A DNA stretch of 64,000 bases from Thunnus maccoyii (Eukaryota; Chordata; Actinopteri; Scombriformes; Scombridae): contig NC_056553.1 in NCBI RefSeq assembly GCF_910596095.1, forward strand, positions 3,530,291-3,594,290, read 5' to 3'. Numbering within the stretch: position 1 is the first letter of the stretch; each line of letters starts with the position of its first letter. Position numbers and translations under genes: made by a program. Below, one piece after another: positions 13,537-51,685 of this stretch. Under the pieces are notes generated by a model. The model was not told the origin of the DNA, did no database searches, and was given only the letters and a program-made list of their open reading frames with translations.

Positions 13537-15330
13537 TATAGATCTCAGTAGTAATGACTTTATGAGCTTCTTTAATGATAAAATTCTAACTATTAGAGAC
13601 AAAATTAACCACCTCCTGCCCTCAACAGGCACCGTTTTCTCCCCAAACACAGGCACCTTAGAAACAGCTGTAAATCCTGACATACATTTGGACTGTTTTT
13701 CTCCAGTTGACTTTTCTTAACTAACTTCAATGATTTGTTCAGCTAAACCATCAACCTGTCTCTTAGACCCCATCCCAACTATGTTGCTTAAGGAAGCCTT
13801 ACCCTTAGTGAGCACTTCTTTACTAGATATGATCAATCTGTCTTTAGTAACAGGCTATGTACCACAGTCCTTTAAAGTAGCTGTAATTAAACCTCTTCTT
13901 AAGAAGCCTAGTCTTGATTCAGGCATTTTAGCCAATTATAGACCTATATCTAACCTTCCATTTCTCTCTAAGATCCTTGAGAAAGCAGTCTCTAATCAGT
14001 TATGTGACTTTCTACATAACAATAGTTTATTTGAGGATTTTCAGTCAGGATTTAGAAGCATCATAGCACAGAGACAGCACTGGTGAAAGTCACAAATGAC
14101 CTCCTAACTGCATCAGACAAAGGATTTGTCTCTGTACTTGTCCTGTTAGATCTTAGTGCCGCATTCGACACAATTGACCATCAGTTCCTTTTGCAGAGAC
14201 TGGAACATTTAATTGGCATTAAAGGAACTGCATTAAACTGGTTTAAGTCCTATTTATCAAACCGATTTCAGTTTGTACATGTTAATGATGAATCCTCCGT
14301 GAAGGCAAGGGTTAGACACAGAGTTCCACAAGGTTCTGTACTTGGACCAATTCTATTCACCTTATATATGCTTCCTTTAGGTAATATTATTAGGAAACAC
14401 TCCATAAATTTTCATTGTTATGCAGATGATACCCAATTATATTTATCAATGAAGCCTGATGAAACCAATCAGTTAAACAAACTCCAAGCATGCCTTAACG
14501 ACATAAAGACCTGGATGACCTGCAATTTTCTACTACTAAATTCAGATAAAACTGAAGTTATTGTGCTTGGCCCTAAACACCTTAGAAACACATTATCTAA
14601 TGATATAGCTACCCTGGATGGCATTACCCTGGCCTCCAGCACCACCGTAAGGAATCTGGGAGTTATCTTTGATCAGGATATGTCCTTTAACTCCCACATA
14701 AATCAAATCTCAAGGACTGCCTTTTTTCACTTACGTAATATCACAAAAATCAGGCACATCCTGTCCCTAAAAGATGCAGAAAAACTAGTCCACGCATTTG
14801 TTACCTCGAGGCTGGATTATTGCAATTCCTTATTATCAGGCTGCCCTAACAAGTCTCTAAAGACTCTCCAGCTGGTCCAGAATGCAGCTGCACGTGTATT
14901 GACTAAAACTAGAAAAAGAGATCACATTTCTCCCATTTTAGCTTCGCTACATTGGCTTCCTGTAAAATCTAGAAAAGAATTTAAAATCCTTCTCCTAACT
15001 TACAAAGCCCTTAATGGTCAGGCATCATCAGATCTCGAAGAGCTCATAGTACCGTATTATCCCACTAGAACACTGCGCTCCCAGTATGCAGGCTTACTGG
15101 TGGTTCCTACAGTCTTTAAAAGTAGAATGGGAGGCAGAGCCTTCAGCTATCAGGCTCCTCTCTTGTGGAACCATCTTCCAGATTCGGTCCGGGGTGCAGA
15201 CACCCTCTCTACATTTAAGAGTAGGCTTAAAACTTTCCGTTTTGATAAAGCTTATAGTTAGGGCCGACCAGGCTCACCTTGGATCAGCCCTTAGTTATGC
15301 TGCTATTGTTATGTTTTAGGTTTTTGGTGT
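13537..15330 (+). mobile_element. 5'-truncated L2-like LINE with reverse transcriptase
   Basis: This is a non-LTR retrotransposon reverse transcriptase of the L2/CR1 type. The plus-strand translation shows the thumb and finger blocks LLKKPSLDSGILANYRPISN and [13 protein letters not shown], the [13 protein letters not shown] motif, the catalytic YADDTQLY box, and the C-terminal [13 protein letters not shown] block, ending at 15261. The last 392 codons (14083-15261) are open. Upstream there is an in-frame stop at about 13718 and a frameshift near 14060, so it is dead. The endonuclease is absent. It lies between eif2s3 and the HHLA2-like genes. Confidence 0.9.
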
Positions 15331-17399: not shown

Positions 17400-19760
17400 G
17401 GCAACCAGCGTAAAGGTGCATTACTGCCACCCACTATGTTGGAGTGTGAACCAGAGTTATCTACCTCTATAAACAAATCAGAAAAAAGAAAAAAACAAAC
17501 AAACCAAAAGGAAGATGTCCTGAATACTAAATTCTGTTGATCAATCCAGTTTCTTTCAAGTAGTGGAATAAACTACCTAACCCAATTGTAAATACACTTT
17601 TCAAACTCAATTCTTCCCCTCCAATCTTCCTGATTTCTCTCTTTAATACTTCTCGCTCTCGAGAATACTTATTGCAGTGCAAAATGACATGTTCCACTGA
17701 CTCCTCTATTTGACATAGGTCACATAATCCTGAGGGATGTTTGTTTAATGCACTGTTTTATTTAGTCTGGTGTGTCCTACCCTCAGCCTTGTTAAGATGT
17801 TCTCCTCTTTGGTGCTTCTTTTAGCTGACCTCGCTGGGCCCACTTCTCTCTGTACTGCATAGAGGTGTCGTCCTGTATTTGTTGTATCGCATCTGTGCTG
17901 CCACTCTTTAATGATGTTTCTTTTGATTATTCCTTTTGCTTCCGATTTACTGAGTGAAATTTCTATGATCCCCTCATGCTTCAGTGCCTGTTTTGCTAAT
18001 GTATCCACCATTTCATTGCCCTTAATCCCTCTGTGTGCTGATACCCACATAAATGTTATCAAAATATTCATATTTTTAAATCTGTACAGAGTTTCATGTA
18101 TCTCATTAACTATATCCTGCCTACTGTGAGATGTAAATGACTGTAATGACATTAATGCAGAACATGAATCTGTGCAAAGAATAACCTTTTTAATTTGCAA
18201 CTCTTCTATCCACTGTAATGCTGTTGCAATTGCTATAATCTCAGCTGTAGAAACTGACAAATGATGTGACGTTCTTCTTTTCACAGAAACTTTTAAGGTT
18301 AGTATACGCAAAGCAAAGCATGTGCTCTGTGTGTTAGGATCCTTGGATCCATCTGTGTATACTGGTATGAATGTTTGATGTAATGTTTGTAATCTTCAAC
18401 CAAAACTGCAATATTTCCAAAATCTTTATGTACCTGCACTTTTTTTTTTATATCCATAATCTAATACTGCTCTAATCAGAGCAACATAGATATTTTTAAT
18501 CGCAGATCTGCTTGCTTCCCATTCTGATCCTGTTAAACATCTCATCACATTTAGTATCTTTTTACACTTGGTTGTTATCTTGTGAATATGTTCATTCCAT
18601 GTTAACTTTTCATCAAACCACACACCCAAAAATCTAAAGACTTTCACTTGCTCTATTCTTTGTCTGTATATCTTTATCTGTGTGCCAACACCTCTCTTTT
18701 TAGTGAACATTAATGTTTTGTTTTTTTCAACTGAAAACTTAAACCCCCAAGAGTATGACCATTTTTCTACCATGTTAACTGCCAGTTGCATTTTATTTAT
18801 AATATGATCTATATTCTTTCCTCTTTTCCACAAAGCTCCATCATCAGCAAACAATGATCGTCCAATATCATCCTGAACTTGAGAAAATACATCATTTATC
18901 ATGATGGAAAAGAGTACTGGGCTAATAACACTTCCCTGAGGGGTACCATTATCTACCATATCTTCCTTATAAGGCTGTCCCAATTCTGACGTCCATATCT
19001 CTACAGTTACATATTCTTGCTCATTTCCTGTACTCACCTCTCTAAATGAAATATTTTCTCTAATAAATGTTGCACATCCTCCTCCTACTCCATCCCCCCT
19101 ATCATACCTAACAAGTATATCCTACTATTTTTAAGTCCAAATTTGGTCTCAACCATATTTCCTGTACACAAATGTGTACAGGATGTTTGGTTTACTGGGT
19201 TGATCATCAACATACTTATTAAATTCCTGTCCATTGGTCAACAAACTTCTTGCATTCCACTGTAGCAGGATGACCATGATTAGTACTATCCAACCCATGA
19301 CTGTTCCTGGCTTGCTTGAATACTGAGATCTTTTTTTACCTCCTCCCAAGTCAGTCCACTGATATCTAGATGATGAGCTGCTGCCTTCACAATTATTTGT
19401 ATTCTCTCCGTTTTGGATCTGACTTCCATTGTGGCATTTACTACCCCTGCTATGAATGTGACTAACTGCTTTAAATCAACCTTTACTTTTCCCTCACTTT
19501 CCTGATCTGTTTCTTTTATGGTCCCTGTACCTGTTCTGTTTCTCTCACTATTTCCTCCTCTCTGACTCACCATCTTCACAGCCTCTGCATATGTAATCTT
19601 ATTCTGAACTCTTACCTGCTGTATTTCTCTTTCCCTTTTCACCACTTCACATCCCCCATAAGACACACTGTGATTGCCACCACAGTTACAGCACTTTGGT
19701 TGTTCATGATCACATTACCCCTCTGCTGCATGAACACACATCATCTGTACACTTTCCAAC
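17400..19760 (-). mobile_element. I-clade (Nimb-like) LINE with RNase H, internally deleted
   Basis: Read on minus from 19760: a CCHC knuckle (KCCNCGGNHS...) and the tail of ORF1 (to about 19330), the very start of an APE endonuclease (LLQWNARSLLTNGQEF, about 19260), then a jump to reverse transcriptase (GTPQGSVISPVLF and the catalytic FADD box, 19037-18426), then RNase H (SVSTAEIIAIATAL, TDSCSA, HRGIKGNEMVDTLAK, 18311-17745) and a C-terminal cysteine block (CDLCQIEESVEHVILHC). RNase H after the reverse transcriptase marks the I clade. Most of the endonuclease and part of the reverse transcriptase are deleted, and frames are broken. Confidence 0.88.
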
Positions 19761-19919: not shown

Positions 19920-19985
19920 ATCCCAGTAAAGACTCCCAAAGAGAGAGCCGTCATTATGCTGCGGTTTTGTGACTGTTACAGCAGG
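19920..19985 (+). other. 5' UTR of HHLA2-like gene 1
   Basis: A CAG at 19917-19919 could be an acceptor, making 19920-20052 the first coding exon with a 66-nt leader. An in-frame upstream ATG at 19956 exists. The ATG at 19986 (context agcaggATGTCTGG) is preferred because the same context and start are conserved in gene 2. Confidence 0.4.
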
Positions 19986-22900
19986 ATGTCTGGCATCAAG
20001 AGTATCTTTCTGGTGGTCATGACCTTTCTGCTTTCTCCTCCTGCCAGAGGAGGTGAGTATGTGTCTGATCTTTTTCCAGTCTAAAACTAAATTGCAGATA
20101 TTTTTAAACTTAGTACAATGTGTTGTCATGGTTGCTTTTACCTGAGAAAGGGTAAAAAGAGAAGGTAGAGAGGAGTGAACTATGGATGTATAAAGAGAAC
20201 TGGATACAGGAACAATGCTGGACTTTGAAGCCAATTTGACATAGTGGCCGAACCGTGTAATTATTACGTCACGTGATGCTATTGGGCCCAAACAGACTTT
20301 TTCTTATAGACTTACATTGTGAGAAAGACTTCCGTAAATCAGTGGATACATTTTTTTGAGTATCACAACCCCCCCGAAATGTCTCGGTTCTCTTTATACA
20401 TCCATGTTATGTGCCCCTCATGGATGTATAAAGAGAACTGGATACAGTGTCGGAGGCGGGGCCCTGCTCATTCCTATGAAAGTTGCTCAGTGGCTCATGG
20501 GCCCAGTAGCATCACGTGATGTTTTGCCACTATGTAAATTTGGCTTCACAGCTTGGCGCTGTTCCTGGGGGCTTGAAGCCAAATCAAATTGTGCTGTTCT
20601 GGAAGACATTTAGTTCCACATGTCACACAGTCATCTTCAGCTGAATGAAAACAAATATATCAGATCAAGTTTCTCTGATTGTGACTTATATGGTCAAACA
20701 ACTTATTGATCAGATTTTTACAGAGAGCTCACTTGGATTCAACTGTTTTCTCTGAACTGAACCTTGACGACGTCTCCATGTGATGTTTTACAGATGTTGA
20801 GGTCTCCTGTGTTTTCATGGAAAGCTGCATCTTGCCGTGCAGATTTCAAGCTGGTGTTGACGTCGTCATCCACTGGATTCACGAGACAGCAGGAAAGGTT
20901 CCGGTCCACTCTTACTACTACAACCAAGACCAGCTCTTTCACCAGAACCAGCGCTTCAGAGACAGGACATCGCTGTTCAATGACCAGATCTCCAGAGGAA
21001 ACGCCTCGCTTCGGCTGACAGGGGTGGAGTTTCAAGACCAGGGCAGATATAAATGTTACACCAGCACCATCACCGGAAACAAGGAGACATTTATCAACCT
21101 AAAAGTGGACGGTACGGGAACTCATAGTATTTCCAGAAAATAAGAATAAGAAATACTATTAGCAGTGCATTTCATCATATTAGAATTACATGAAATCAAC
21201 TGATTGTTCATCATTAACATTAACATATTGATGCGTTAGTCATCATGTGTACTACAGTGTAATCCCATAAACCACGAGTAATAGTTGAATAGTAGTGGGG
21301 ATACTCACGCCAAATTGTTTTACTATGTACATATAGCTTTTTGTACTATTCCTCTTTGCAATATTTAAAGTGGCTGTAATCAATATTTTTTTATAATAAC
21401 AATGTTTAAAATGACAGTAGTGTAACGTGAGAGGCATCGCTCATGGTGATGAAACTTTACAGAGCTTTATAGTGAGTTTCAGCTCATTGTTTATCTGTCC
21501 GGCTGCAACTTTACTGTTCTGGTTCACTCTCAGAGCTCTCATAGCGTCGTTTTCAGAGAAAAAGCTGTAAAAAGCCGCTGTACACTACCTGCTCAGCACC
21601 AAACAGCAAACAGACACAGTTAGCTGTAGACTAGCTGGTGAACATAGTGGAGCATTTAGCAGCTAAAGAGCCAGATATTTCCCTCAGGAGTTGGTAGAGA
21701 GTAAAAACAGAGCTAAAAGAGAGTGAATATTGGACTCACCAGATTACGCTGCCCCCTAGTGGCCAAAAAAAATCTGTAAATGCAGGTTTAAACTGATCCG
21801 CTGACAAAGTAGTGTTTCCTACAGTGTTTCCTATCTCCTTCGGTTCTGAATCGATTTCCAAATGTCAAAAATCGATTATCTAAATGTTAGGTAATTTTAG
21901 TCATATCAAGTGGATATCTGCCACATTTACAGTCTTTTTAGCATCAAATTCCCTCTTTGTGTTTCCTCGGACAGTGTTTCCCTGTTGAGCTGCAGGTGGA
22001 AGTATAGTAACAAAAAGAGGGACTTTGGCACTAAAAAGACTGTAATGTTGAAAGATATCTACTTGATTTGACTCATTTGGATGCTGAAGCTTCATATCAG
22101 CTTCAGATGAAAAAAAATTTGTTGGCTCAGTTTTCTCCTTGGCTCAGCTAGTTTTAATCTGCGTTGATTTGTCGGCCTCTGAAAGCACTGAAAATGCACT
22201 TTCATTCAATTCAAAACTTGAACTGAATTGGCTTCCTCTCCCCCCCTCCCCACCATACACCCATTTTGGTCTTTTCTAGGGGGGACCAGCAGGTCAACAG
22301 TAAATGCCACATAGAAATGATATACATCATCTGAAAGCTGGGAGCCTGAAGATTAATTTGAGATGCAGCTGGGTTGATATCATTTGTAACAAAGAGTTAG
22401 TGCAAATTAATGAAAGTGAAATTGAATTGAAAGTTGAATTGATGAAAGTGGTCAAAATCCCTCCAAAATACCACATTTAGACATCCAGACCTTGAGGAAC
22501 AAGGAAAAAGGAAAAGTTTGTGCTGTAATTTGGTATCAAAAACTTTTGACATTTGGAGATTTCTGTAACAATTGCATTTTTCGGCGATTGGATGGCACGC
22601 ACTTCTGCTCTGGAAATTGCTCAGAAACTCCCTTATTGTCAATAAACCTAGTTTAGTGTGTTATTTAGCCCCCTTCCCAATAAGCTAGCATGACATGGTT
22701 GGTACCGACTATTGACACATGCAGCTAGATTTAGGAACATTTCTGTCTTGCGCCTTTTCACACATAACATGGCAATGCCAGAATAGATGGAGCAAGGGAC
22801 TGCCTTGCCATACTGGCATTTTCCCTGAAATGTTACGAGGTCTTGAAGTGGGAAATTGGCGGTACAGATTTCCCTGAATATTGATCCCTGTGCCCATTCA

Positions 22901-24933
22901 CACATGACCCCATGCAGGAAATGTTGCTGAACATTTCAGAGATGGACTGCATGTGTGAAAGGGGCTTAGCTTCTAAAGCTGAGCTGAGCCTTCTACAACC
23001 TCAGAAAGACAGTAATATCGGCCAAGGCCTTGTGGAGTTTTAAGATGTTTAATTACATATCTTTCCCTACTCCCTATTCATTTGTGGTTTCAATATAATT
23101 ACTCAATAAAGTTTGGTAATCAAAATACTTTAAGGAATGAAAACTTTGAAAGTACAAATGTCATCTGATCGTAAAGCTACAGCTTTAAGGCACTTCATGG
23201 TTATAGAGGGAGGTAAAGAAGGGAAGGAAATCAAATTTTGTGGCATCACTCAACCCTACCGCTCAGTTCTCCTTCTTTACCACTTCAAAAACATGTTGCT
23301 ATAAAGTGAATCTTTGGGTTTTTTTGTGTATTTCCAGCTCCAGTCCATAAAGTCAACATTCAGCAGGTAGAAAACAAGATCACCTGCAGATCAGACGGGA
23401 TCTACCCTGAGCCTGAGCTCACCTGGTCCACCAGTCCTCCATCCAACATGACTCTCCAGAACAAAACTGAAGTCCAGCAGACTGAGCAGCAGCTCTACAA
23501 CATCATCAGTTCTCTGATACTTTCAGACAGTGCTGGTGATCTGACCTACATCTGCACCGTCAGCACTCAGACAAGCAGCAGCAGAGCCTCACTGAAGACA
23601 CTACGTAAGTATCAATTGTGTAAACATACAGTATATCTATTATTGTGTTCCAGCTGTTCAACTTTCAGCTTCTTTTGGGGTAATAATAAAGTTACATTGC
23701 ATTCATTAAGCAGACACTTCAATCCAAAGCAACTTACATTTAGGGAGCAATTTGAGGTTGAAGGGGACATATGCTGTTCTCACTAAAAGTTGTTGCAAGC
23801 AACGTATTTTTCAGCTGTACAGCCAGCTTAACATTATATTCTCCAGCATTGCATCCTCCAAGGATCAGACAGGGTGATGTGTTTGGCAGGATTTAATTGA
23901 GGAAAATATGTAATTTGTAAAACTGAAAAAGAATACAAAATACAAACAAGTAAGTACTCTTTTAAGTACTACATAATATCTCTAGTACACCAATAGAGAA
24001 AAGATTACTGACATAAACCCATGTGAACAGGTGCTTAAAAATATGTCAATATGTGTAATAAAGGATGAAAATACAACAGTAAATGTCATTTACCAGAGCA
24101 CCAATGCTTTAACCACTAACACTAATACATCCATATGTAGTTGACTATAAAGTAACCATCATCAAAAATACTGCACTTAAACCCGAGAAATAGTAACATG
24201 TCAATATAACCAGAAATAGTAGATGACTTATGGATGAAGCTGTTTCTGTGGACTTTAAGGCACAGGATTAAGAAGACTGTTACACTGTGATGCTCAATCC
24301 ATGAGCACAGGGGCAAAAAGAACTTCCTGAACTCTGCTTCCTGTTTACTATTCCCTCACTTCTTTTTCAAAACAGTTATTGGGAATCACCACTAGGTGGT
24401 ACTAAAGAACATACAAAAGAAACCAATACACTGATTCCAATACAGGACATGTCATGCTTTTTGTGATTTTCAAAATTAGGTTGACACTTTCCTTGTATTA
24501 AATGTGCATCTTAATTTCATTGCAATTTTCTGTTTTGTGTGTTTTTATATTATTTCAATTTAGCCCCAATCACCGGTTCAGTCACTAAAACAACAATCCG
24601 CTGTCCTCCCTCAAACATTTCCCTAACGGACCTCGTCTGGAGATTTAACCACAGTCAGACCATCCTGAACAGGACCGGGGCTGAGGTCAGCTGCACAGAG
24701 GAGTGGAGGCCGCAGGTGAAGGATGTGTCCGAGTCAGGCGACCTCACGCTTGAGGACTTGTCTTCAAATCAGGAGGGGATATACACGTGTGAACGCAGTA
24801 ATAATGAGGAGACATGCGTAACCAGTATCTTCTTGAGGATAGAGAATAGTCAAGGTAAGGTAGCATGAAGTAGGAATGTTCAGTCTATCTGAACAAGAGC
24901 TGTTATTACCTGTGATACTGTATATTACTTATA

Positions 24934-25003
<70 letters not shown>

Positions 25004-28000
25004 TATATATAATACTTAATACTACTACATGACTCACTGTATCAGACAGTTCCAGTTATTCGCTGTGCCGAAGTGTGTCATGGAATCATAAACTGTCGAT
25101 TCCAGACATGTTTCACACTCTCAAAAGAATCAAAAACATTTTTTTTATTAGATTTTTGGCCCACTGGAACACAGAAAGTTATCAAGTCACAATGTTGGTG
25201 TCATTCATGAAAAGCAAAAAGCAACATTTTCTTAAGAAAATCAGACACAAAGCAGATAAAGCGAGAGTAACTTCCACTAAGGGGTTGCAGTTTAAGTGTA
25301 CACTATATTTAGAATATTTTCACTGCTTTACCTTGCCGTCAGACAGCCCTTTCCTTTGGCACTACATTTTCTCAACCTTAGAACTTTCAATTAGCACAAA
25401 GAAACTTTCCACTTTCAGCGGTGAAAATGCTTGTGAAAACAAACTCTGCACAAACATTGTTGTGGCCATTTGTTCAAAAGGCAAAAAAGGACAAATCAAG
25501 AGTTCCTTCAAAAATATCAAAATTCAAGAAAAATCAAAAAAGGGCCACAAATGCACCAGGTTAGTTAGGCTTACTCAGACAGTCAAAGAATCCATTTTCC
25601 AGGCCAAAAGCTCAGTTCAGAGGGTTTATTTTCGGCTTTCAACACGAAACAAACATGTTAAAAAATCATGCTGCCTCTCTGCTTTGTCCTGCTGGTAAAA
25701 AAAAAACAACCATTTCCCCTTCCCGGTGCATTTCCTGCCTCTAACACCTGGCTACCTATATCACCTACTGTCTGATGCCCCTTGTGTTTACTCACAAAAC
25801 AAAATAAATAAAAATAAACAACATAAACAAAAAAAAAAAATAATCTAATCAAACTAATGAAATAGCTCCTTCAAACATCATTCTGCACAGAGAAGGTCAA
25901 ATATATAGGACCAAGAAGAAAAACACAGTTTTGAGAAGAGGGAGACTTTACATTATTAAGTAAGAAACAACTGGAAGTAAACAAGTGCATAATAAATACC
26001 ATAAACAACAAGAAAGTAGTGCAACAATTATCAAAGTGCTAAAAGGTTAAAGTGGCTCAAGTGTTGAGGTGTTTCTTTTAAAATGTGTACCCACCTCCGT
26101 GCTCAAAAATGCACTTGACTGTATTGGGCCATGCCTGGTTTCCGTCATAAACAGCTCCTTGCAATCTGGCTGTGTCCCAGCATACTTCAAACATGCAGTT
26201 GTTCAGCCCCTCCTGAAAAAAACGAACCTTGATCCATACAGTCTCCATAATTATAGGCCTATTTCCAAGCTGCCTTTTATTTCTAAAATTTTAGAGAAGT
26301 TTGTCGCCAAACAGCTCACTGCTGTCTTGACTGCACACAACATTTTTGATAAGTTTCAATCAGGTTTCCTTCAGAAGCATTTCACCGAAACTGCTCTTCT
26401 CAGAGTTTCCAATGATATATTGATGTCATCAGATGTGGGTGAGTGCTCCATTTTAGTGCTGCTGGATCTTAGCACAGCTTTTGACACTGTTGATCACAGA
26501 ATAATGACTGAAAGGCTCTCTTTCCCATTACGTCGGGAAGACGTAATGGGAAAGAGTGCACAGTAAACTCGGCAGCCACACATTTCTCTGTTCTGTATTT
26601 CTCTGTTTTGTGTCTTCAGGTTATACTAACCCATTGTTGCTAACTTTGGAGCTAACTCCCTTCACTTTTCCAGCATTTGGGGAAAAACAGACATGACTTT
26701 TTAGCATTTATTAACTGACACATTGTAGTCTGTACTGTACATTTACTGCCAGACTGACAACTTACTACTAACCTTTTCCTCTGCTCCGCTCATATCCACC
26801 GTCACTTCTCTGTCCCTCGCTCTTTCCCGCTCGCTACGCAAACATACTCCTTAACGGAGCCGCGCGACCAGTGGTTTCCCCGGCAACGACACAGAGGTTG
26901 ACTCACGTACCGGAACAGCGCTGCTCAGAGACTCCCAAACGCTGTCGATTTCAAATCAAAATCAAATATTAAATATTTTTTTTGACCTGGCGGGGGTTCT
27001 CGTTGTGTCATTATGGAGAAACACAGATTCAGTAAACGTTCAGTAACCGTTGAGAACAGTTTGACCCAGCAGTCTCTGTTAGGTTGGGCGAGTTCAAAGT
27101 TTTGAAAACAACGGGGGTGTTTTGAATACACCCCCGTTGTTTTCATATCGACCAACTAGTCGACCAGCAGACTACAGCCCTAGTCTCAATATTTAGCTGC
27201 TGTCGCTGATTGAAATGACAGACATGAACTAGCAGCAGATCAGATCAGCTGTAGCTAATTAACATTAATTAAAGTTTATCTGTTAATGTGTCTGCAGCTG
27301 CTGTCTGGATTCAGACAAAGATTGTTTGTGAGTGAAAAGACAAAAATCACTCTGTAACAAACTGTACGACCACCAGATGAATGATACAAGAGGATTCAGA
27401 TTCAATTATTGGATTTGATACTGTATTTAAAACTGAAAGGATTTAATAAAATGCATTAATGGAAAATAGATGAAATGACTTTTACCTGGAAACAATGAAA
27501 ACATGTTAATACATGTCACAAGTGAACATTTTGATGCAACAGTATTTGTTGTTACACTTGTGGAAGTTTGGTTTGTAGGAAGTTCAATTAAAACTCTTTC
27601 TCTGTTTCAGATAGTTCAACTAACGTGGCAGGAATTGCAATTCCAGTTGTGGTTGGAGCCATTTTGTTTGTAGTATTAATGTTCCTGGGAGTACGCTGTG
27701 CCACAAATCAGACAGCAGCAAGAGACCCAGAGAACCCAGAACCACCCGAAGGTATCTTAGAGTAAGTATATCCTCTGTACTGAATACAAAAACACTGCTG
27801 CACTATAATGAACTCTGTATGAGCTGCGATTATGTTTAAGCAGAATATTGTATTTAATTTTATTACTAAAATAATGTCTAGTTTGATTTCCTCAAATCAT
27901 TTTAGTTCATATCATGCTGTAATTCATTTATTCAATCAACAACTTTTGCAGATGTTGCTGTATGACTGATGATTTGTGATACAAGTTGTGTTTATTATTT

Positions 28001-28544
28001 ATCATCTTCTGCCCATTGTTTTCACTGGTTTTATTGTTTTTATTGGTGAATCAAAGACACATTTCTGCCCTAATATTAATCATAATAATAACAATAATAA
28101 TAAACAATAAACTTTTTTATTTATTCAGCTGTTTTCTTAACAAAGTTACAAAGTGTTTCACAGAAAAAGAAGAAAGAATTAAAAAACAGTAATTACAGAA
28201 ATGAAAAACAAACAGATCATAAAACAACAGGAAATAAAATGAAGTTACATAAAAATATAAATTGACAAGACTGGGATGATAAAACATAGCAACACATTAA
28301 ATATTCATAAAGTCTTACCTTTATGAATTAATTAAGTTGTTCAGTTCAAATCAAACTTTAAATTAATTTCTGTCTCAGCTTAAAAGATGAATCAGTTGTG
28401 ATGATGATTCAAACTCAGGATAAATATATTGGAGATGACTTTAGGTTTGATCTTGATGTGTTTCAGCACTGATTTTTATTCTATTTTGTTTTCAGTTCAC
28501 CAGAGGAGATTCCATTGAACGAGAGAGAAAATGGGGGAGAATAA
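19986..28544 (+). CDS. hhla2: HHLA2-like B7-family Ig ligand, gene 1
   Basis: A type I membrane protein probably acting as a T-cell co-signalling ligand. Coding exons: 19986-20052 (signal peptide MSGIKSIFLVVMTFLL), 20794-21111 (IgV), 23338-23604 (IgC), 24564-24854 (V-like Ig), 27611-27761 (transmembrane, ending TAARDPENPEPPEG) and 28496-28544 (tail, ends NERENGGE). All Ig junctions are phase 1, as in the Ig superfamily; the total is 1143 nt, 380 aa. HHLA2-type features are the V-C-V order, VIHW, VHSYYY, RTSLF and GNASL in domain 1, and YPEPELTW in domain 2. Several N-glycosylation sites are visible (for example NHS, NRT). The gene is intact. Introns hold LINE, hAT and MITE insertions. B7 family is near certain; the HHLA2 assignment is from recalled motif similarity. 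Confidence 0.82.
20181..20406. mobile_element. MITE with 'atggatgtataaagaga' ends
   Basis: The left end tatggatgtataaagagaa is inverted at the right end (tctctttatacatccatg). It lies in intron 1 of HHLA2-like gene 1. Its internal text matches the left half of the longer element at 53214-53717. Confidence 0.7.
20419..20590. mobile_element. Half copy of the same MITE family
   Basis: It starts with catggatgtataaagagaa only 12 bp after the previous copy and continues with 'tgtcggaggcggggcc'. That text matches the inverted right half of the 53214-53717 element. The far end is missing. Confidence 0.6.
21430..22100. repeat. Interspersed repeats in intron 2 of HHLA2-like gene 1
   Basis: The part 21430-21760 resembles a common teleost repeat ('gtggagcatttagcagctaa', 'cctcaggagttggtagaga'). 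The part 21893-22100 is a reverse-orientation copy of the middle of the MITE at 61843-62405; both read KVPLFVTILPPAAQQGNTV in a shadow frame. The rest of the intron to 23337 shows nothing recognisable. Confidence 0.6.
23685..23765 (+). repeat. Fragment of the 'aagcaacttaca' fish repeat
   Basis: It contains 'cattaagcagacacttcaat' followed by 'ccaaagcaacttacattta', a block common in teleost introns. It lies in intron 3 of HHLA2-like gene 1. The rest of the intron to 24563 is unremarkable. Confidence 0.45.
24938..24996. repeat. (TA)n microsatellite
   Basis: About 30 TA units lie in intron 4 of HHLA2-like gene 1. The copy-2 intron lacks this tract. Confidence 0.95.
26083..26516 (+). mobile_element. 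LINE (L2-like) reverse transcriptase fragment
   Basis: The plus frame reads CVPAYFKHAVVQPLLKK, then YRPISKLPFISKILEKFV, and then ILVLLDLSTAFDTVDHR, where it stops matching. These are the first reverse transcriptase blocks of an L2-like LINE. The catalytic half is missing, so this is a 3'-truncated piece, unlike the usual 5' truncation. The paralogous intron of gene 2 reads 'gaggtgttccttttaaaatt' at the equivalent site, without the LINE. Confidence 0.8.
26556..27182 (-). mobile_element. Truncated hAT copy
   Basis: It is the reverse-orientation equivalent of 53126-54440. Shared text includes 'agtgcacagtaaactc', 'gcgggggttctcgttgt' and the terminal 'ctacagcccta' at its right end. It lacks the far terminus and the nested MITE seen in the klhl15 copy. 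It lies in intron 4 of HHLA2-like gene 1, next to the LINE fragment. Confidence 0.65.
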
Positions 28545-28545
28545 A
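28540..28545 (+). terminator. Poly(A) signal overlapping the exon 6a stop codon
   Basis: AATAAA spans the last coding bases and the TAA of exon 6a. A second AATAAA lies at 28623-28628. Both could end the short-tail transcript of HHLA2-like gene 1. Confidence 0.4.
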
Positions 28546-29212
28546 GATGAAGGAAAATATATCCATCTGCTCCGTTGCAATGAAGCCTCCGATCACACGG
28601 TGCTGCTCTGAAGAGTGACTGTAATAAATTATTGTGAACAAACTGACACATGAATGTAAAAATGTACAGGAAGTGGAAACTCTGGACAAAGAGACGCTTA
28701 CTGCATTCAGACTGAAAATAAGTCCTGCATTAAAAAATGCAACGGGCCGTGTTGATTAAATATCCCCTCCATGTTTTAAGATGAATATAAAATACTCTAC
28801 TTTGAATAATGATTTCTGTCCAATATGATAACAACATCAACAAGTGAATTCATCATGTTACTAAAGTTATCAGTCTTGTATTTAAATTAAAATAGATACG
28901 TTTTGGACATTATTACATGTTAATTTAAGTCAGTGTAAGCTACAAAACAAGGTCATAAACTCAGCATAACTGTAGCTCTGAACCACTGTGTGAAACAGTT
29001 TTGTCTAATTGGAGGTTGTGGGGTAAAATGTGCCAGTGATGTTGGAGCAAGTTGAGTCAATGAGTCAATTTAAGTATTTAAGTATTATTTTCTGATATTC
29101 TAGAGACACTGTTCATGTTTGATCCCCGTTACAAGTATTACAATGTTGATGAATAAATACCTAATTGTTGACTAATGTTAAGTTTAAGCCAAATACAAAC
29201 ATGCTGTACATA

Positions 29213-29774
29213 CAGACGGGTGACAAATTAAAGGAAAAATCAACATAAAGTGTTTTAGTAAGGTGTTGGACCACCAGAACAGCTTCAATACACCTTGTTA
29301 TTGACTCTACAAGTCTCTGAACTGGAGGGAGGAACAACATTCTTCCAAAAAGATATTCCCTCATTTGGTGTTGTGATGATGGTGGTGGAGAGCGCTGTCT
29401 AACACGTCAGTCCTAAATCTCTCATAGGTTCAACTGGGTTGAGATCTGGTGACTGTGAAGGTCATAGCATCTGATTCACATCATTTAATACTCATCAAAC
29501 CATCAGTGACCCCTCGTGTCCTGTGAATTGGGACATTGTCATCCTGGAAGAGACCACTCCCATCAGGATAGAAATGTTTCATCATAGGATGAAGCTGATC
29601 ACTCACAACTACTTTGTATTGATTAGCAGTGATTCTTCCCTCTAAGAGGACAAGTGGACCCAAACCATGTCAGCAAAATGCCCCCAAAGCATATCAGAGC
29701 CCCCAGATCCCCTCACTGTAGGGGTCAAACATTCAGACCTGGACCAGTTTTTCCTTTAATTTGTCACCTGTCTG
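29213..29774 (-). mobile_element. Deleted Tc1-like transposon, 562 bp
   Basis: It has 27-bp terminal inverted repeats with one mismatch (left end begins CAGACGGGTGACAAATT) and is flanked by TA on both sides, the Tc1/mariner target duplication. The minus strand keeps a piece of transposase, including GLFQDDNVPIHRTRG, the second catalytic Asp region. The N-terminal domain is gone. It sits between the alternative last exons of HHLA2-like gene 1. Confidence 0.9.
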
Positions 29775-30616
29775 TATACAAAAAAGCACATTTACACACA
29801 TATTCTTTCTGTAGTTACAGTAACACTCAAAGATCACAGTTTAATCTTTACTGAAAATGTTTAAGTAACATGTTGAACAACAAGACACAAACATATGGTT
29901 TTACTTAAAGTACAAGTTTTGTCTTTGTTAAACTGATAGCATTAATAAAGTTCAAAATTATCTCAAAATTGTTTGATTTTGTGTCATTTTTGTATCAGTA
30001 TTTTACGGTGGCACTATTTACCTGCAGAATGCTCGTTTTACCCCTACCTTGGGGCAAATTGTGCCATAGGACTAATTTTATTTGATGGCTCATTGTTCTA
30101 AAACCAACTTGTTTTAATTTCCATGGATACACAACAACCTGAGGTATATATAGTAACTATTATTTGAAACAAATACACTTTTATATTTCACTAAAATCAT
30201 CAAATGTAAAAAGTGGCTCATGTTAACTCGTTTATTAGTGCACACATGTGGAGTGCATCTGTGTTTGCAGAAACATGCACACAGAGACTTTTTGGCACTT
30301 CTGTAATGAATCCTGGTAGTGACTGAAACTACTAGTCAGTGAGTGAACCTGGTAACAGCTGCTGCAGCTGCAGAGGATGGACTGTGGTTTACTGTCTGTG
30401 TAGATTATTTATGTTTTTGTACTGTGTAGCAGTGAACAGGTCATTATGATTTCCATGTTTCTTTTTTTTAACTTTGCATTTAATGGGAGAGATCATGTTG
30501 TTGGTGTCAAATCTCCACATGTGATTGTGTTTGATGGCTGTAACTGTTCTGATTTTGAGTTTGAAAACCTTTATGTGTGCTGAAAATGTTGAGCAACAAA
30601 CTTTGTTATCTTTCAG

Positions 30617-30653
30617 CTCGGATAATTATGAGGTTTTTACACAAGAAGACTGA
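30617..30653 (+). CDS. hhla2: Alternative last coding exon (6b) of HHLA2-like gene 1
   Basis: It follows a good acceptor (tttgttatctttcag). Joined to the donor at 27761 the phase fits (GA|C), and the tail becomes ...DSDNYEVFTQED then TGA, adding one tyrosine absent from exon 6a. AATAAA at 30691-30696 follows at a normal distance. An equivalent exon exists in gene 2 at 43461-43497, which supports conservation. Use in transcripts is inferred, not seen. Confidence 0.6.
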
Positions 30654-30690
30654 TATAACTTTTACTCTGTACATTTTTGTAAGACTTCAT

Positions 30691-30696
30691 AATAAA
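30691..30696 (+). terminator. Poly(A) signal of HHLA2-like gene 1, long form
   Basis: AATAAA lies 38 bp after the exon 6b stop and is conserved at 43535-43540 in gene 2. Confidence 0.6.
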
Positions 30697-30845
30697 GGTA
30701 CAATGCAGTGAATTAATGCAGGATGTATCAGTGCTCATTAACAAAGAATCAAATCATTAAGACTTTATGTGATTAGTTAACACTTAATAAATCATCAATT
30801 AATGAATGTTAATTCACTGTTACTTCATACATTAACTGATACAGA

Positions 30846-38000: not shown

Positions 38001-40995
38001 GAATAAACCAAGTATAATAAAAAAGACCTGCAGTCACAATAAAACTCCATGTTCTGGTTTAAACAGCTGCCAGAAAACTTTAGTGCTACTTATACACACA
38101 AACAATCACTGTGTCAGTATTGACTAAATTTTTACCATCACAAATCTACTCTAGCTCTTTTTAACCTTACATGTCACTATTTGTTTCTGATTGTTTATGA
38201 TATGTATATCCTCTGCAGTTTGAATGTCATATTCACGTTGTTTTATAAAACAAACAATATATGTGTCAAAGTTTTAAGGTAAAAACTTGAGCTTGTTGAG
38301 TCTTATTCTTGGTCAAAACAACCCATGCACATCAAAATATTACTTAATTACTTTTTCATATTTGTGTTATTTCATTTTAGCTTCTATGAATGGTTCCAGC
38401 AGTGAAACAACAATCTCCTGCACTTCCTCTAACATTCCCCTAACAAGTCTGATCTGGAGATTCAACCACAGTCAGACCATCCTGACTCAGACTGGGGCCG
38501 ACGTCCCGTACACATCTTCAGAGGAGTGGAGCCATCAGGTGATGGATGTGTCTGAGTCAGGCAACCTCAAGCTAAAGGACTTGTCTTCAAAACATGACGG
38601 GATATACACGTGTGAACTTAATAATGCTGAGGAGACGTACATAACAAACACCTTTCTGAGGATTATAGAAGGTAAGATCATGTCACAGTAAATGAAGTGT
38701 AAGTGAGAAAACACTGATTGTATCAGTCATTAATCTATGAACATAAAATCACTGGTTTAATAAAACTGATACTGGTTGTTGAGAGAAGCTGCTAACATGA
38801 ACTAAAACACAAGCAAATACTAACCAGCATAACCAGTCAAGTCTTAATATAAACAGTATAACAAAGACCAGCAGGGATTCAATAAGAAGGGCATCATCTG
38901 GCACCGCATGTGACATTATTACACATTGTTACACATCATACATCATATAAGTTACATACTGGACCAGGATTGGCTCCAGACTAGTTGTGATGTCACAAAT
39001 CCTGCTTGTTGACCCGCCCCTAAATCAGGTTCTCAATGAGCACAGAGAAACTTTCCACTTTCAGCAGATGAATGTGAAAACAAACTCTGCACATACATCA
39101 TTCTGCACAGAGAAGCTCAAACATTCAACTGAAGGAACAAGAAGAAAAACAGTTTTGAGTGGAGGGAGACTTTAAATTATTAAGTAAGAAATGACTGGAA
39201 GTAAACAAGTGAATAATAAATACCATAAAGTGTTGAGGTGTTCCTTTTAAAATTTTAATAACTTTCCAAAGAGGCAAATTATACATTTAAGCCAGACTTG
39301 TATTCATAAGTGTCATGCAGACAGTAGTATAGTAGAGTAGTCTTGGTACAGCAGCTGAGATGTGTCGATCCTTAAAGCAAATGTGACAAAATGCTGCTTG
39401 ATGTGCATCGATGGTAGGAAATAAAACAGTAGTGAATCCAAACACAATGACACGTTGTAATGTGCAACAGCATCTTTTAGTGAAAGTAGGGATGAGTCCT
39501 GATATCCAGTTCCATTTTGGATCCAGTTCTTGGTCGGCAAAACACCAGGATTCTTTATGAGTCTCCTATTAAACCTTTTATCTTTCCTCACTGTTTTTAT
39601 TAGCAAAGAGCACTAAACAACATACAGTATACTGTAGGTAGCAGGCATCTCAATATTTAGCTGAAAGTCGCTGTCACTGATTGAAATGACAGACATGAAC
39701 TAGCAGCAGATCAGATCAGCTGTAGCTAATTAACATTAATTAAAGTTTATCTGTTAATGTGTCTGCAGCTGCTGTCTGGATTCAGACAAAGATTGTTTGT
39801 GAGTGAAAAGACAAAAATCACTCTGTAACAAACTGTACGACCACCAGATGAATGATACAAGAGGATTCAGATTCAATTATTGGATTTGATACTGTATTTA
39901 AAACTGAAAGGATTTAATAAAATGTATTAATGGAAAATAGATGAAATGACTTTTACCTGGAAACAATGAAAACATGTTAATACATGTCACAGGTGAACAT
40001 TTTGATGCAACAGTATTTGTCGTTGCACTTGTGGAAGTTTGGTTTGTAGGAAGTTCAATTAAAACTCTTTCTCTGTTTCAGACAGTTCAACTAAAGAGGC
40101 AGGAATTGTAGGCGGGGTGGTTGGAGCTGTTTTGTGTGTAGCATTAATGGTCCTGGGAGAATACTGTCTTAGAAATCGGACAGCAGCAAGAGACCCAGAG
40201 AAACCAGAACCATCCAACGGTGTCTCAAAGTAAGTATATCCTCTGTACTGAATACAAAAACACTGCTGCACTATAATGAACTCTGTATGAGCTGCGATTA
40301 TGTTTAAGCAGAATATTGTATTTAGTTTTATTACTAAAATCATGTCTAGTTTGATTTCCTCAAATCATTTTAGTTCATATCATGCTGTAATTCATTTATT
40401 CAATCAACAACTTTTGCAGATGTTGCTGTATGACTGATGATTTGTGATACAAGTTGTGTTTATTATTTATCATCTTCTGCCCATTGTTTTCACTGGTTTT
40501 ATTGTTTTTATTGGTGAATCAAAGACACATTTCTGCCCTAATATTAATAATAATAATAACAATAATAATAAACAATAAACTTTTTTATTTATTCAGCTGT
40601 TTTCTTAACAAAGTTACAAAGTGTTTCACAGAAAAAGAAGAAAGAATTAAAAAAACAGTAATTACAGAAATGAAAAACAAACAGATCATAAAACAACAGG
40701 AAATAAAATGAAGTTGCACAAAAATATAAATTGGCAAGACTGGGATGATAAAACATAACAACACATTAAATATTCATAAATTCTTACCTGTTCAGTTCAA
40801 ATCAAGCTTTAAATTAATTTCTGTCTCAGCTTAAAAGATGAATCAGTTGTGATGATGATTCAAACTCAGGATAAATATATTGGAGATGACTTTAGGTTTG
40901 ATCTTGATGTGTTTCAGCACTGATTTTTATTCTATTTTGTTTTCAGTCCAGCAGAGGATATTCTATTGAACGAGAGAGAAAATGGGGGAGAATAA
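35014..40995 (+). CDS. hhla2: HHLA2-like B7-family Ig ligand, gene 2
   Basis: Tandem paralogue of the gene at 19986-28544, with the same six-exon plan. Exons: 35014-35080 (signal peptide, MSGVKCVVFLVVVIFL), 36994-37317 (IgV with FIHW, VHSYYY, RTSLF, GNASL), 37745-38011 (IgC with YPAPKITW), 38381-38671 (third Ig, WRFNHSQTIL), 40082-40229 (transmembrane) and 40947-40995 (tail ending NERENGGE). Phases match throughout; 1146 nt, 381 aa. Exons 1, 3 and 4 have exactly the lengths of gene 1; exon 2 is 6 nt longer and exon 5 is 3 nt shorter. The IgV domains differ most in the C-C' region (...IHWFNVEVVNTREN... against ...IHWIHETAGK...), a likely ligand-contact face. No defects seen. Confidence 0.82.
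35081..36993. other. Intron 1 of HHLA2-like gene 2
   Basis: About 1.9 kb of AT-rich DNA with no recognised element. It shows no visible resemblance to intron 1 of gene 1 except the last ~45 bp before the acceptor ('cctgaactgaaccttg'). Confidence 0.5.
38672..40081. other. Intron 4 of HHLA2-like gene 2
   Basis: The part 39040-39260 matches pieces of gene 1 intron 4 (for example 'gaaactttccactttcagc' and 'ggagggagactttaaatt'). From 39650 onwards the match to 27184-27610 becomes almost perfect. The part 39310-39645 is an unassigned block, possibly a repeat, which replaces the LINE plus hAT block of gene 1. Confidence 0.6.
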
Positions 40996-41742: not shown

Positions 41743-42522
41743 CTTTTTTCCCGTTTTCCAAGAGCACCAGTCACTTTTTTTAATCTACGTTGGATTATAG
41801 AGCAACCAGTCATCTGTTTTTCCATTTAAAAACAGCAGTTTGAAGTAAACACACACTAATTCTCCTTTTTTCCAACTTTTCACAAGTTATACTTATAGTT
41901 ATATTTCCGTTTGTTCTTTGGTCTCATTCTGTCAAAAGTGAAAGAAGATGCCTTTAACTTTTGTTGATAACACCAAAGCTGCCTTGAATACATTCATATC
42001 TTGTTCATTCATGTTTGACAATCAGCCTGCATCTCAAAGTCCAGTTTTCATTGTGGTTTCCAGGTTTGTTCACTGTAGTGACTGAAACTACTAGTCAGTG
42101 AGTGAACCTGGTAACAGCTGCTGCAGCTGCAGAGGATGGACTGTGGTTTACTGTCTGTGTAGATTATTTATGTTTTTGTACTGTGTAGCAGTGAACAGGT
42201 CATCATGATTTCCATGTTTCTTTTTTTTACATTGCATTTAATGGGAGAGATCATGTTGTTGGTGTCAAATCTCCACATGTGATTGTGTTTGATGGCTGTA
42301 ACTGTTCTGATTTTGAGTTTGAAAACCTTTATGTGTGCTGAAAATGTTGAGCGACAAACTGGTTCAACAGAAGACTCTGCAGTGTTTTGCTCTCTGTCAG
42401 CACACTGCCGCTGTTCAAATGACTGGGAGATGTGACAATATCTGAAACAGTAGAAATGAGTTACAGAAGAGTATCTGCCATTGTTGTAATGATTTAATGA
42501 TGGTTTGGTCATTTTATAAATA

Positions 42523-42735
42523 TTTAAAAACAGAATACTTCAAACAAGAGAAATCCAGGCATTTCAAATGTAAGAAAATGTAACAAACGAGGAAGTAAAT
42601 ATTAAAAAGCCTTTATTATAGTGGCTAAATCATCTTTAAAAAGCCACTACAATAAAGGCTTTTTAATATTTCCCTCATTTGTTACATTTTCTTATATTTA
42701 GAGCACCTGGATTGTTTTCTGTTTCTTTTTTCCCG
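42523..42735. mobile_element. Near-palindromic hairpin MITE, second copy
   Basis: This is the same hairpin in the next ~990-bp unit. A small deletion in its right arm (the 'ttcttgtttgaag' part is lost) makes the outer stem shorter. Confidence 0.8.
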
Positions 42736-43460
42736 TTTTCCAAGAGCACCAGACACTTTTTTTAATCTACGTTGGATTATAGAGCAACCAGTCATCTGTT
42801 TTTCCATTTAAAAACAGCAGTTTGAAGTAAACATACACTAATTCTCCTTTTTTCTTTTTTCCAACTTTTCACAAGTTATACTTTTATTTCCGTTTGTTCT
42901 TTGGTCTCAATCTGTCAAAAGTGAAAGAAGATGCCTTTAACTTTTGTTGATAACACCAAAGCTGCCTTGAATACATTCATATCTTGTTCATTCATGTTTG
43001 ACAATCAGCCTGCATCTCAAAGTCCAGTTTTCATTGTGGTTTCCGGGTTTTGTTCACTGTAGTGACTGAAACTACTAGTCAGTGAGTGAACCTGGTAACA
43101 GCTGCTGCAGCTGCAGAGGATGGACTGTGGTTTACTGTCTGTGTAGATTATTTATGTTTTTGTACTGTGTAGCAGTGAACAGGTCATTATGATTTCCATG
43201 TTTCTTTTTTTTTACATTTCATTTAATGGGAGAGATCATGTTGTTGGTGTCAAATCTCCACATGTGATTGTGTTTGATGGCTGTAACTGTTCTGATTTTG
43301 AGTTTGAAAACCTTTATGTGTGCTGAAAATGTTGACCGACAAACTGGTTCAACAGAAGACTGCAGTGTTTTGCTCTCTGTCAGCACACTGCCGCTGTTCA
43401 AATGACTGGGAGATTTAAGTGTGTTGAAAATGTTGAGCAACAAACTTTGTTATCTTTCAG

Positions 43461-43497
43461 CTCAGATAATTATGAGGTTTTTACACAAGAAGACTGA
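43461..43497 (+). CDS. hhla2: Alternative last coding exon (6b) of HHLA2-like gene 2
   Basis: It follows ttgttatctttcag and encodes, in the phase left by the donor at 40229, the tail ...SDNYEVFTQED then TGA, identical in protein to gene 1 exon 6b. AATAAA follows at 43535-43540. Conservation of frame, acceptor and poly(A) signal in both copies argues that the exon is used. Confidence 0.6.
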
Positions 43498-50242: not shown

Positions 50243-51633
50243 ATGTCGGGGGCGGATGTGGAGGTGTACCTGTCCCAGGTGCACGATGGGAGCGTGTCGT
50301 CGGGCTTCCGGGCGCTGTACGAGGAGCGTCTGCTGCTGGATGTCACGCTGTTGATAGAGGAGCACCACTTCCAGGTACACAAAAAGCAGACACACACACG
50401 CATGTATGTTACTTTAAACGAGACATATCATGCACATTTCCCCTATATTTATATTCTCTACTGGAAATCTTTGCATGATTTCCAGTTAAACTCCTTATTT
50501 ATCTTCTACTGGTCCTTTATGCAGCCCCTCAGTTCAGCCTCTGTCTGAAACAGGCAGTTTTAGCTCCTGTCTCTTTAAGGCCCGCCTCCTGATGAGCCCA
50601 CACTGTTCTGATTGGTCAGCTTCAGGAAGCTTCCTCCGGCTCCGGAGGCTACGTAAACAAACTATAGTAGCAGGATTTCACTTCTTTTTCTCCTTCTTTA
50701 CTCCGAATGTCAACTTCTCAAATCCATCCGTACATGTTGGAGCCAAAATCTGATCCAGAATATGAAAGTGGACAACACATAGAAAAACCTTAACAACCTC
50801 CTTAGCAACAAAGTCAGCTTGTTGGCAGTTTTTACATATATTTACCTGTTTAATATTCGACATCATTACAATATATAAATAACAAAAAAAAGCATGATAT
50901 GTCCCCTTTAAATGATTCGCAGCCCTCAAACAGGAGCGTAAACTACATATCACAGTCCTACATTGTCTTACTGAACATTTCCTAAAACGTTTTAAAGTAA
51001 GTTATTAATATAGCAAAACAAAAAGCTACAAAGTGTTTCACTTTAAAAGCATCAAACATGCATGATAGTAACAACAAGATTTATATTTACAAAACGGAAA
51101 TAATATCAACAAAATAAACTTTACAAAACAGCAAACAGCAGTTTAAAGAAGCGAGTGAATCTGTATACAGTGTGTATAAAGTTACAGTTGAGCTGAATAA
51201 TCTGACGCTCGGTCTCCCTTCATCTTAAGTCGACCTCTGGGAGCATCAGCAGACTCTGTTTAGCTGATCTGAGAGACTTTAAGTGACTATAAAGACACAA
51301 CAGTTCAGAGATGAACTGACGGGCTTCATCATGTAGAGCCTGATGAGTAACTCTAAACTCTACTGTTGCCGCCGCCGCTGCTGTCATTTTGTAAACGTGT
51401 GTCCATCTACTGTTCTCGCTCCTCCTGCAGGCCCACAAGGCGCTGCTAGCCACCCAGAGCGACTACTTCCGGGTCATGTTCACAGCTGACATGAGGGAGA
51501 GGGACCAGGACAAGATCCACATGAAGGGACTGACAGCAGCAGGGTTCGGCCACATTCTCCGATTCATGTACTATGGCTCGCTGGAGCTCAGCATGCCCAC
51601 CGTCCAAGAGATCCTACAGGTAACGCCAAACGC

Positions 51634-51685
<52 letters not shown>

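Follow-up and report, generated by a model that had tools for sequence, protein, structure and literature searches.

Does a fish B7-type ligand choose between two cytoplasmic tails, one carrying a tyrosine and the other devoid of it? The question is raised by a stretch of 64,000 nucleotides of Thunnus maccoyii DNA (NCBI RefSeq assembly GCF_910596095.1, contig NC_056553.1, positions 3,530,291 to 3,594,290 of the forward strand), hereafter the window, in which a gene referred to as gene 1 (19956-28838) shows a near and a far candidate last exon downstream of its transmembrane (TM) exon. A preliminary description had proposed that the two exons are alternatives in an HHLA2-like gene, that switching between them would control reverse signalling or trafficking, and that no such case was known for genes of this type. 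The features on which the argument turns are the following:

19956..20052, + strand, leader exon of gene 1 (signal peptide), ending in phase 1; spliced frame open
20794..21111, + strand, V-set exon of gene 1 (Pfam V-set 4.3e-10); spliced frame open
23338..23604, + strand, C-set exon of gene 1 (Pfam C2-set_3 2e-08)
24564..24854, + strand, third immunoglobulin (Ig) exon of gene 1 (Pfam ig 3.9e-05)
27611..27761, + strand, transmembrane and juxtamembrane tail exon of gene 1, phase 1 in and phase 2 out (splice frame, TM scan)
28496..28544, + strand, near last exon, tail D-SPEEIPLNERENGGE-stop; likely homologue in the relatives g6 and g7
28623..28628, + strand, AATAAA of the near exon
30617..30653, + strand, candidate far last exon, tail D-SDNYEVFTQED-stop; exon-encoded peptide the same in 4/4 copies
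30691..30696, + strand, AATAAA of the far exon

Judged from its sequence, gene 1 is an intact three-Ig B7-type membrane ligand, HHLA2-like in displaying the HHLA2/B7H7 layout of a leader, three Ig domains (V-C-V), a TM segment and a short tail. B7H7/HHLA2 genes are known in teleosts (PMC11599192). The V-set and C-set domains exceeded the Pfam cut-off, while the third Ig domain was weak and did so for 'ig' only (24.3 vs 21.8), its V-set score (18.8) being below 26. The solved structures nearest to gene 1 were CD276 (2.4e-26) and PD-L1 (2.4e-19), with no HHLA2 among the best 60 of 335 matches; the label therefore rests on the three-Ig layout and is used here for that layout, not for proven orthology.

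Layout of the last intron of gene 1

The TM exon reads ...tttcag/ATAGTTCA at its start and ...TTAGA/gtaagt at its end (slashes mark exon boundaries), and thus ends in phase 2 (GA/). At the near exon, the acceptor ttttgttttcag/T provides the T that completes an Asp codon, followed by SPEEIPLNERENGGE; at the far exon, ttatctttcag/C provides the C that likewise completes Asp, followed by SDNYEVFTQED. The spliced frame of gene 1 is open with either tail (390 amino acids with the near, 386 with the far one). The positions of both exons, the phase 2 end, the single-base starts and the poly(A) signals were in this way all confirmed as originally described, and the layout is that of alternative last exons, with one donor, two phase-compatible acceptors, and a stop and an AATAAA for each exon. 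No good GT that could serve as a donor linking the near to the far exon was found within 250 bases from the near exon start. Since no GT there scores above -1.3 (splice-site scores throughout come from rough matrices, not from MaxEnt), splicing of the two exons in series is unlikely and they are more likely alternatives. Two alternative last exons are a fair reading of the gene 1 sequence, given that the pair recurs in the paralogues described below.

We give an even chance to the proposal that these are two mutually exclusive terminal exons, both in use, with the near one dominating. The near tail would be the default because it is transcribed first and has the stronger acceptor (6.0, vs 2.1 for the far exon; the remaining gene 1 acceptors range from 0.4 to 6.7), and these two properties, together with the likely homologue in g6 and g7, suggest that the near exon is ancestral as well. 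The far tail would appear in a minority of transcripts, upon skipping of the near acceptor or of the near poly(A) site, and would give a protein ending in SDNYEVFTQED. Whether the far exon is actually used is evenly poised, and such use would probably be minor. The opposite arrangement, in which the near form is minor and the far exon serves as the principal tail, in every tissue or in certain ones, would agree with the constancy of the far peptide, which exceeds that of any other coding part of the TM/tail module, and with the variability of the near tail, but is improbable in view of the order of the exons, the difference between their acceptors and the likely last-exon homologue in g6 and g7.

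Paralogues of gene 1 and expectation by chance

Searches for paralogues covered the source genome (782 Mb in 54 contigs). The same TM-near-far order was found in gene 2, which lies in the window, and in g3 and g4 (C21:3.958-3.987 Mb, opposite strand), i.e. in 4/4 of the paralogues found to have a near exon of the gene 1 subtype. Genes 1, 2, g3 and g4 each read in frame from the V exon onwards with either tail, the leader having been located in gene 1 only. The corresponding exons of gene 2 are:

40082..40229, + strand, transmembrane exon of gene 2, phase 2 out
40947..40995, + strand, near last exon of gene 2, tail N-PAEDILLNERENGGE-stop
43461..43497, + strand, candidate far last exon of gene 2, tail N-SDNYEVFTQED-stop

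The shared order bears on the possibility that the far exon belongs to another transcript, such as that of an unannotated gene distinct from gene 1, or a non-coding RNA with its end near 30696. The distance of 2.1 kb beyond the near exon would fit this, as would the open frame that enters the far exon from upstream (an open reading frame (ORF) from 30560 that is unbroken in each of the 3 copies compared). Against it, all four copies have the TM, near and far exons in this order, and no other coding exon was recognised between the near and far exons in the ORF list and the TM scan (no gene predictor was run); we consider this explanation highly improbable.

The far-exon peptide is identical in 4/4 copies, the split first residue being Asp in gene 1 and Asn in gene 2, g3 and g4. 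Across the four copies only 1/37 sites of the far exon is variable, a synonymous TCG/TCA change, vs 8/49 sites in the near exon, mostly non-synonymous (Fisher one-sided p = 0.04; Fisher p-values here and below are descriptive only, because gene conversion breaks the independence of sites). Conservation in the four paralogues may thus be taken as modest added support for the far exon.

A strong competitor, which falls somewhat short of an even chance, is that the near exon alone is used and that the far one is a chance in-phase non-coding ORF, copied along with the 3' end by recent duplication and gene conversion. To set the expectation, we scanned 408 kb (the window and 140 kb of C21, each on both strands) for an acceptor scoring at least as high as that of the far exon, followed by a phase-2 ORF of 8-40 codons and an AATAAA within 90 nt. 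The four strands yielded 18, 12, 24 and 21 sites (75 in total), which corresponds to 0.40 expected sites in the 2.15 kb that follow the near exon, or 0.36 when the 6/75 sites that are near or far exons of the gene family are set aside (69 left). With 0.36-0.40 sites expected by chance, phase, ORF and AATAAA alone are not evidence of a far exon. Four candidate terminal exons near gene 1 passed the acceptor, phase and AATAAA filter (28129, 28496, 29821 and 30617), including two decoys: 28129, in the intron before the near exon, is intact in 1/4 copies, and the stretch surrounding 29821 gave no blastn match in the gene 2, g3 or g4 neighbourhoods.

Further observations weigh, like this expectation, against a functional far exon. 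(i) Intactness discriminates poorly: among in-phase ORFs that follow any AG, 10/30 in the TM-near block (near exon counted) are intact in 4/4 copies, and 10/13 in the far block (far exon counted) in all three copies compared (gene 2, the upstream part of which is rearranged, was omitted from this count). (ii) The variability of the far exon does not differ significantly from that of its own flanks (1/37 vs 18/205, p = 0.18; 3' flank taken as 165 bases, within the homology of g3/g4). (iii) Being young and homogenised (genes 1 and 2 share 99% identity in the block from 30570), the copies do not count as independent witnesses. (iv) The far acceptor of g3 is damaged (ttatcagtcag, score -3.2), and an extra AG 4 nt upstream of it would give NQLR-stop, a tail without tyrosine. 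(v) No match to the far exon was found in the g6 and g7 neighbourhoods. The repeat-rich flanks of the far exon, with a dispersed repeat beginning mostly about 50 nt past the stop, would also suit a chance ORF. The chance explanation is countered by the far exon encoding the same amino acids in each of the 4 copies, in a module in which the near exon varies at 8/49 and the TM exon at 49/148 sites. Only 2/41 decoy ORFs (near and far excluded; no acceptor or AATAAA filter) were equally amino-acid-identical in all copies compared, so that a chance ORF that is also frozen would be expected at 0.40 x 2/41, about 0.02, a post hoc product on related copies. The pair of alternative last exons first proposed for gene 1 thus recurs, with the same far peptide, in all four copies found to have a near exon of this subtype, one of which has a damaged far acceptor.

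We also considered whether the far exon is itself part of the dispersed repeat. A 301-base DNA query around it gave at least 42 matches genome-wide (best 40 of 93 candidates scored), and among the matches listed the far exon was covered by at least 4 places, namely genes 1, 2, g3 and g4. Except for a 43-base partial match in gene 2, which stops short of the exon, the remaining matches consist of repeat sequence beyond the stop codon; most begin at query position 142 or later (about window position 30701 on), and one at 115. Among these matches the exon itself was not seen as part of the repeat, to which most of the sequence from about 30701 on belongs.

More distant relatives give an indication of the age of the two exons. 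The last exons of g6 and g7 (3.99-4.02 Mb), read in phase 2, encode EGIPLKEDK and EGIKEDK, respectively, vs EEIPLNERE in gene 1, and 65 bases of the intron, located about 90-155 bases ahead of these exons, share 80% identity with gene 1. The middle tail exon of g6/g7 was placed by eye, and the comparison drew on its end and on the last exon alone. The near exon is thus the likely homologue of the g6/g7 last exon. With a near homologue and no detected far exon in these two genes, the near exon appears to be ancestral; the far one would be either a younger addition or lost in g6 and g7, being confined to the tail module of genes 1, 2, g3 and g4. The relative g5 (G000:C21:3974475-3976260) has three tandem V exons and a stop inside its TM exon; neither a near nor a far exon was seen in the 1.6 kb after that exon or in the genome searches.

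Two features of gene 2 were recorded alongside. In gene 1 the far exon is preceded by a 287-base sequence (30316-30602), of which gene 2 has two copies, about 1 kb apart, ahead of its far exon (42075-43345). The C-exon donor of gene 2 at 38011 is CAA/gtataa (rough score -4.2), while g3, g4 and g5 have CAA/gtaagt (4.7).

The transmembrane exon, its introns and the rest of the window

Between genes 1 and 2 the TM exon (27611-27761 vs 40082-40229) differs at 29/147 sites, while the introns around it differ at 5/427 (or 7/420) sites upstream and 9/716 downstream, about 1.2%. The excess of the TM exon over the introns is seen in the same direction in g3, g4 and g5. Across the four copies, 49/148 sites of this exon are variable vs 20/476 in the introns (p about 6e-19), and in the pair with the most similar upstream intron, g3 and g5, the values are 6/175 and 2/513 (p = 0.004). 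By the Nei-Gojobori method, non-synonymous and synonymous changes per sites in the TM exon were 23/110 and 6/37 for genes 1 and 2, the excess of non-synonymous change being greater in pairs among g2-g5 (25/110 and 3/37 for g2-g3; 13/131 and 0/40 for g4-g5). As synonymous divergence between genes 1 and 2 (16%) far exceeds that of the introns (1.2%), the exon appears to be older and spared by conversion, and not only to have changed fast and recently. These patterns suggest that the TM/tail module is under selection in a setting of gene conversion.

Nor is the ectodomain conserved, the V exon differing by 3-9% among g2-g5. The V exon of gene 1 is nearest to g6 and g7 (C21:3.994-4.015 Mb; 90.6% and 91.4%), as is its C exon (96.3% and 91.4%), while its intron before the TM exon is nearest to g2-g5 (about 98%), and gene 1 accordingly looks chimeric in sequence. 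A comparable pattern is known from bovine CEACAM32, where paralogue introns are similar and coding exons differ, and where the authors infer selection against conversion of the protein (PMC7042247). Like CEACAM32, the gene 1 family appears to have converted introns and spared exons; unlike the gene 1 family, in which the effect is strongest in the TM/tail exon, the protected exons of CEACAM32 encode Ig domains, and CEACAM32 also coopted a unique TM exon (PMC7042247). One account that would join these observations, and which we hold to be doubtful, is that the main target of selection in this young subfamily of fish B7-type genes, whether to preserve or to diversify, is the TM/tail module and less so the ectodomain, while conversion homogenises the 3' introns. 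Gene 1 would have joined the complete module to an ectodomain of the g6/g7 type, divergence would affect the TM exon and the near tail, and the far tyrosine tail would be held constant as a shared, splice-selected trafficking option.

Other elements were noted in the window. Between the near and far exons of gene 1, positions 29210-29777 have inverted 30-base ends that are 96.7% identical; this stretch, probably a DNA transposon, is partly matched elsewhere on C21, and no match to it was seen in gene 2. Retroelement fragments are also present, and a gene that is probably of the BTB-Kelch type lies beside the cluster:

14056-15258, 17745-18395 (- strand) and 26051-26566, retroelement fragments with reverse transcriptase and RNase H domains
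51395-56475, + strand, BTB and Kelch domains on ORFs, probable BTB-Kelch gene

The tyrosine of the far tail and known tail switches

In gene 1 the near tail has no tyrosine and the far tail has one. The tyrosine contrast drawn initially is thus clean in this gene; in g3 the shared TM exon already carries a tail tyrosine (QTYQTEKG), and the tyrosine switch is therefore clean in some copies only. A YxxPhi sorting signal, of the type associated with AP-2, consists of a tyrosine, two residues of any kind and a bulky hydrophobic residue in a cytoplasmic tail, and the YEVF of the far tail agrees with this consensus. The immunoreceptor tyrosine-based inhibitory motif (ITIM) is (S/I/V/L)xYxx(I/V/L), and the corresponding switch motif (ITSM) is TxYxx(V/I) (PMC12151841, PMC5856374). 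Neither fits SDNYEVF, with D at -2 and F at +3, and the far tail was ruled out as an ITIM or ITSM. Because YEVF fits YxxPhi better than ITIM, trafficking is the likelier half of the role first suggested, the argument for reverse signalling being the bare presence of a tyrosine. We infer a role in trafficking rather than in signalling, and the likeliest effect of the far tail would be faster internalisation through YEVF as a YxxPhi-type AP-2 signal.

Mouse CD80 (B7-1), a B7-family ligand, has two possible cytoplasmic tails by alternative splicing, as proposed for gene 1; unlike in the gene 1 family, we know of no tyrosine switch or paralogue family in that case. At the immunoglobulin heavy chain, an early poly(A) site competes with a later terminal exon to yield the secreted or the membrane form. 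There the choice sets membrane anchorage, unlike in gene 1, both forms of which would be anchored. Switching of a tyrosine-bearing tail by splicing is itself already known in immunoglobulin-family genes. In CEACAM1, alternative splicing sets whether the tail carries the tyrosine motifs ITIM/ITSM (PMC5856374), through inclusion or skipping of exon 7 (PMC2490704). Among equine CEACAM1 paralogues, three carry a stop in the TM domain and one ends in a short tail for which a tyrosine sorting signal is predicted; equine CEACAMs thereby offer a published parallel for tails that change through splicing once a gene has been duplicated (PMC5856374). Like CEACAM1, gene 1 encodes a membrane protein of the immunoglobulin family and belongs to a group of genes that is expanding and evolving fast; unlike CEACAM1, gene 1 would select one of two terminal exons, each with its own poly(A) signal, and its motif does not conform to an ITIM. 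In the literature searched (titles and beginnings of abstracts), we came across no account of fish HHLA2 genes with alternative tails, which does not by itself prove that there is none. The original interpretation as a whole is plausible but unproven.

If the far exon is used, a fish B7-type ligand could alternate between tails with and without a tyrosine, and such a switch would bear on whether these ligands are passive or regulated on the presenting cell. The four paralogues, one with a damaged far acceptor, form a natural comparison for this purpose. A TM/tail exon that differs far more than its own introns is unexpected in a ligand family, and, if the account of selection and conversion given above is true, this ligand family would vary inside as much as outside.

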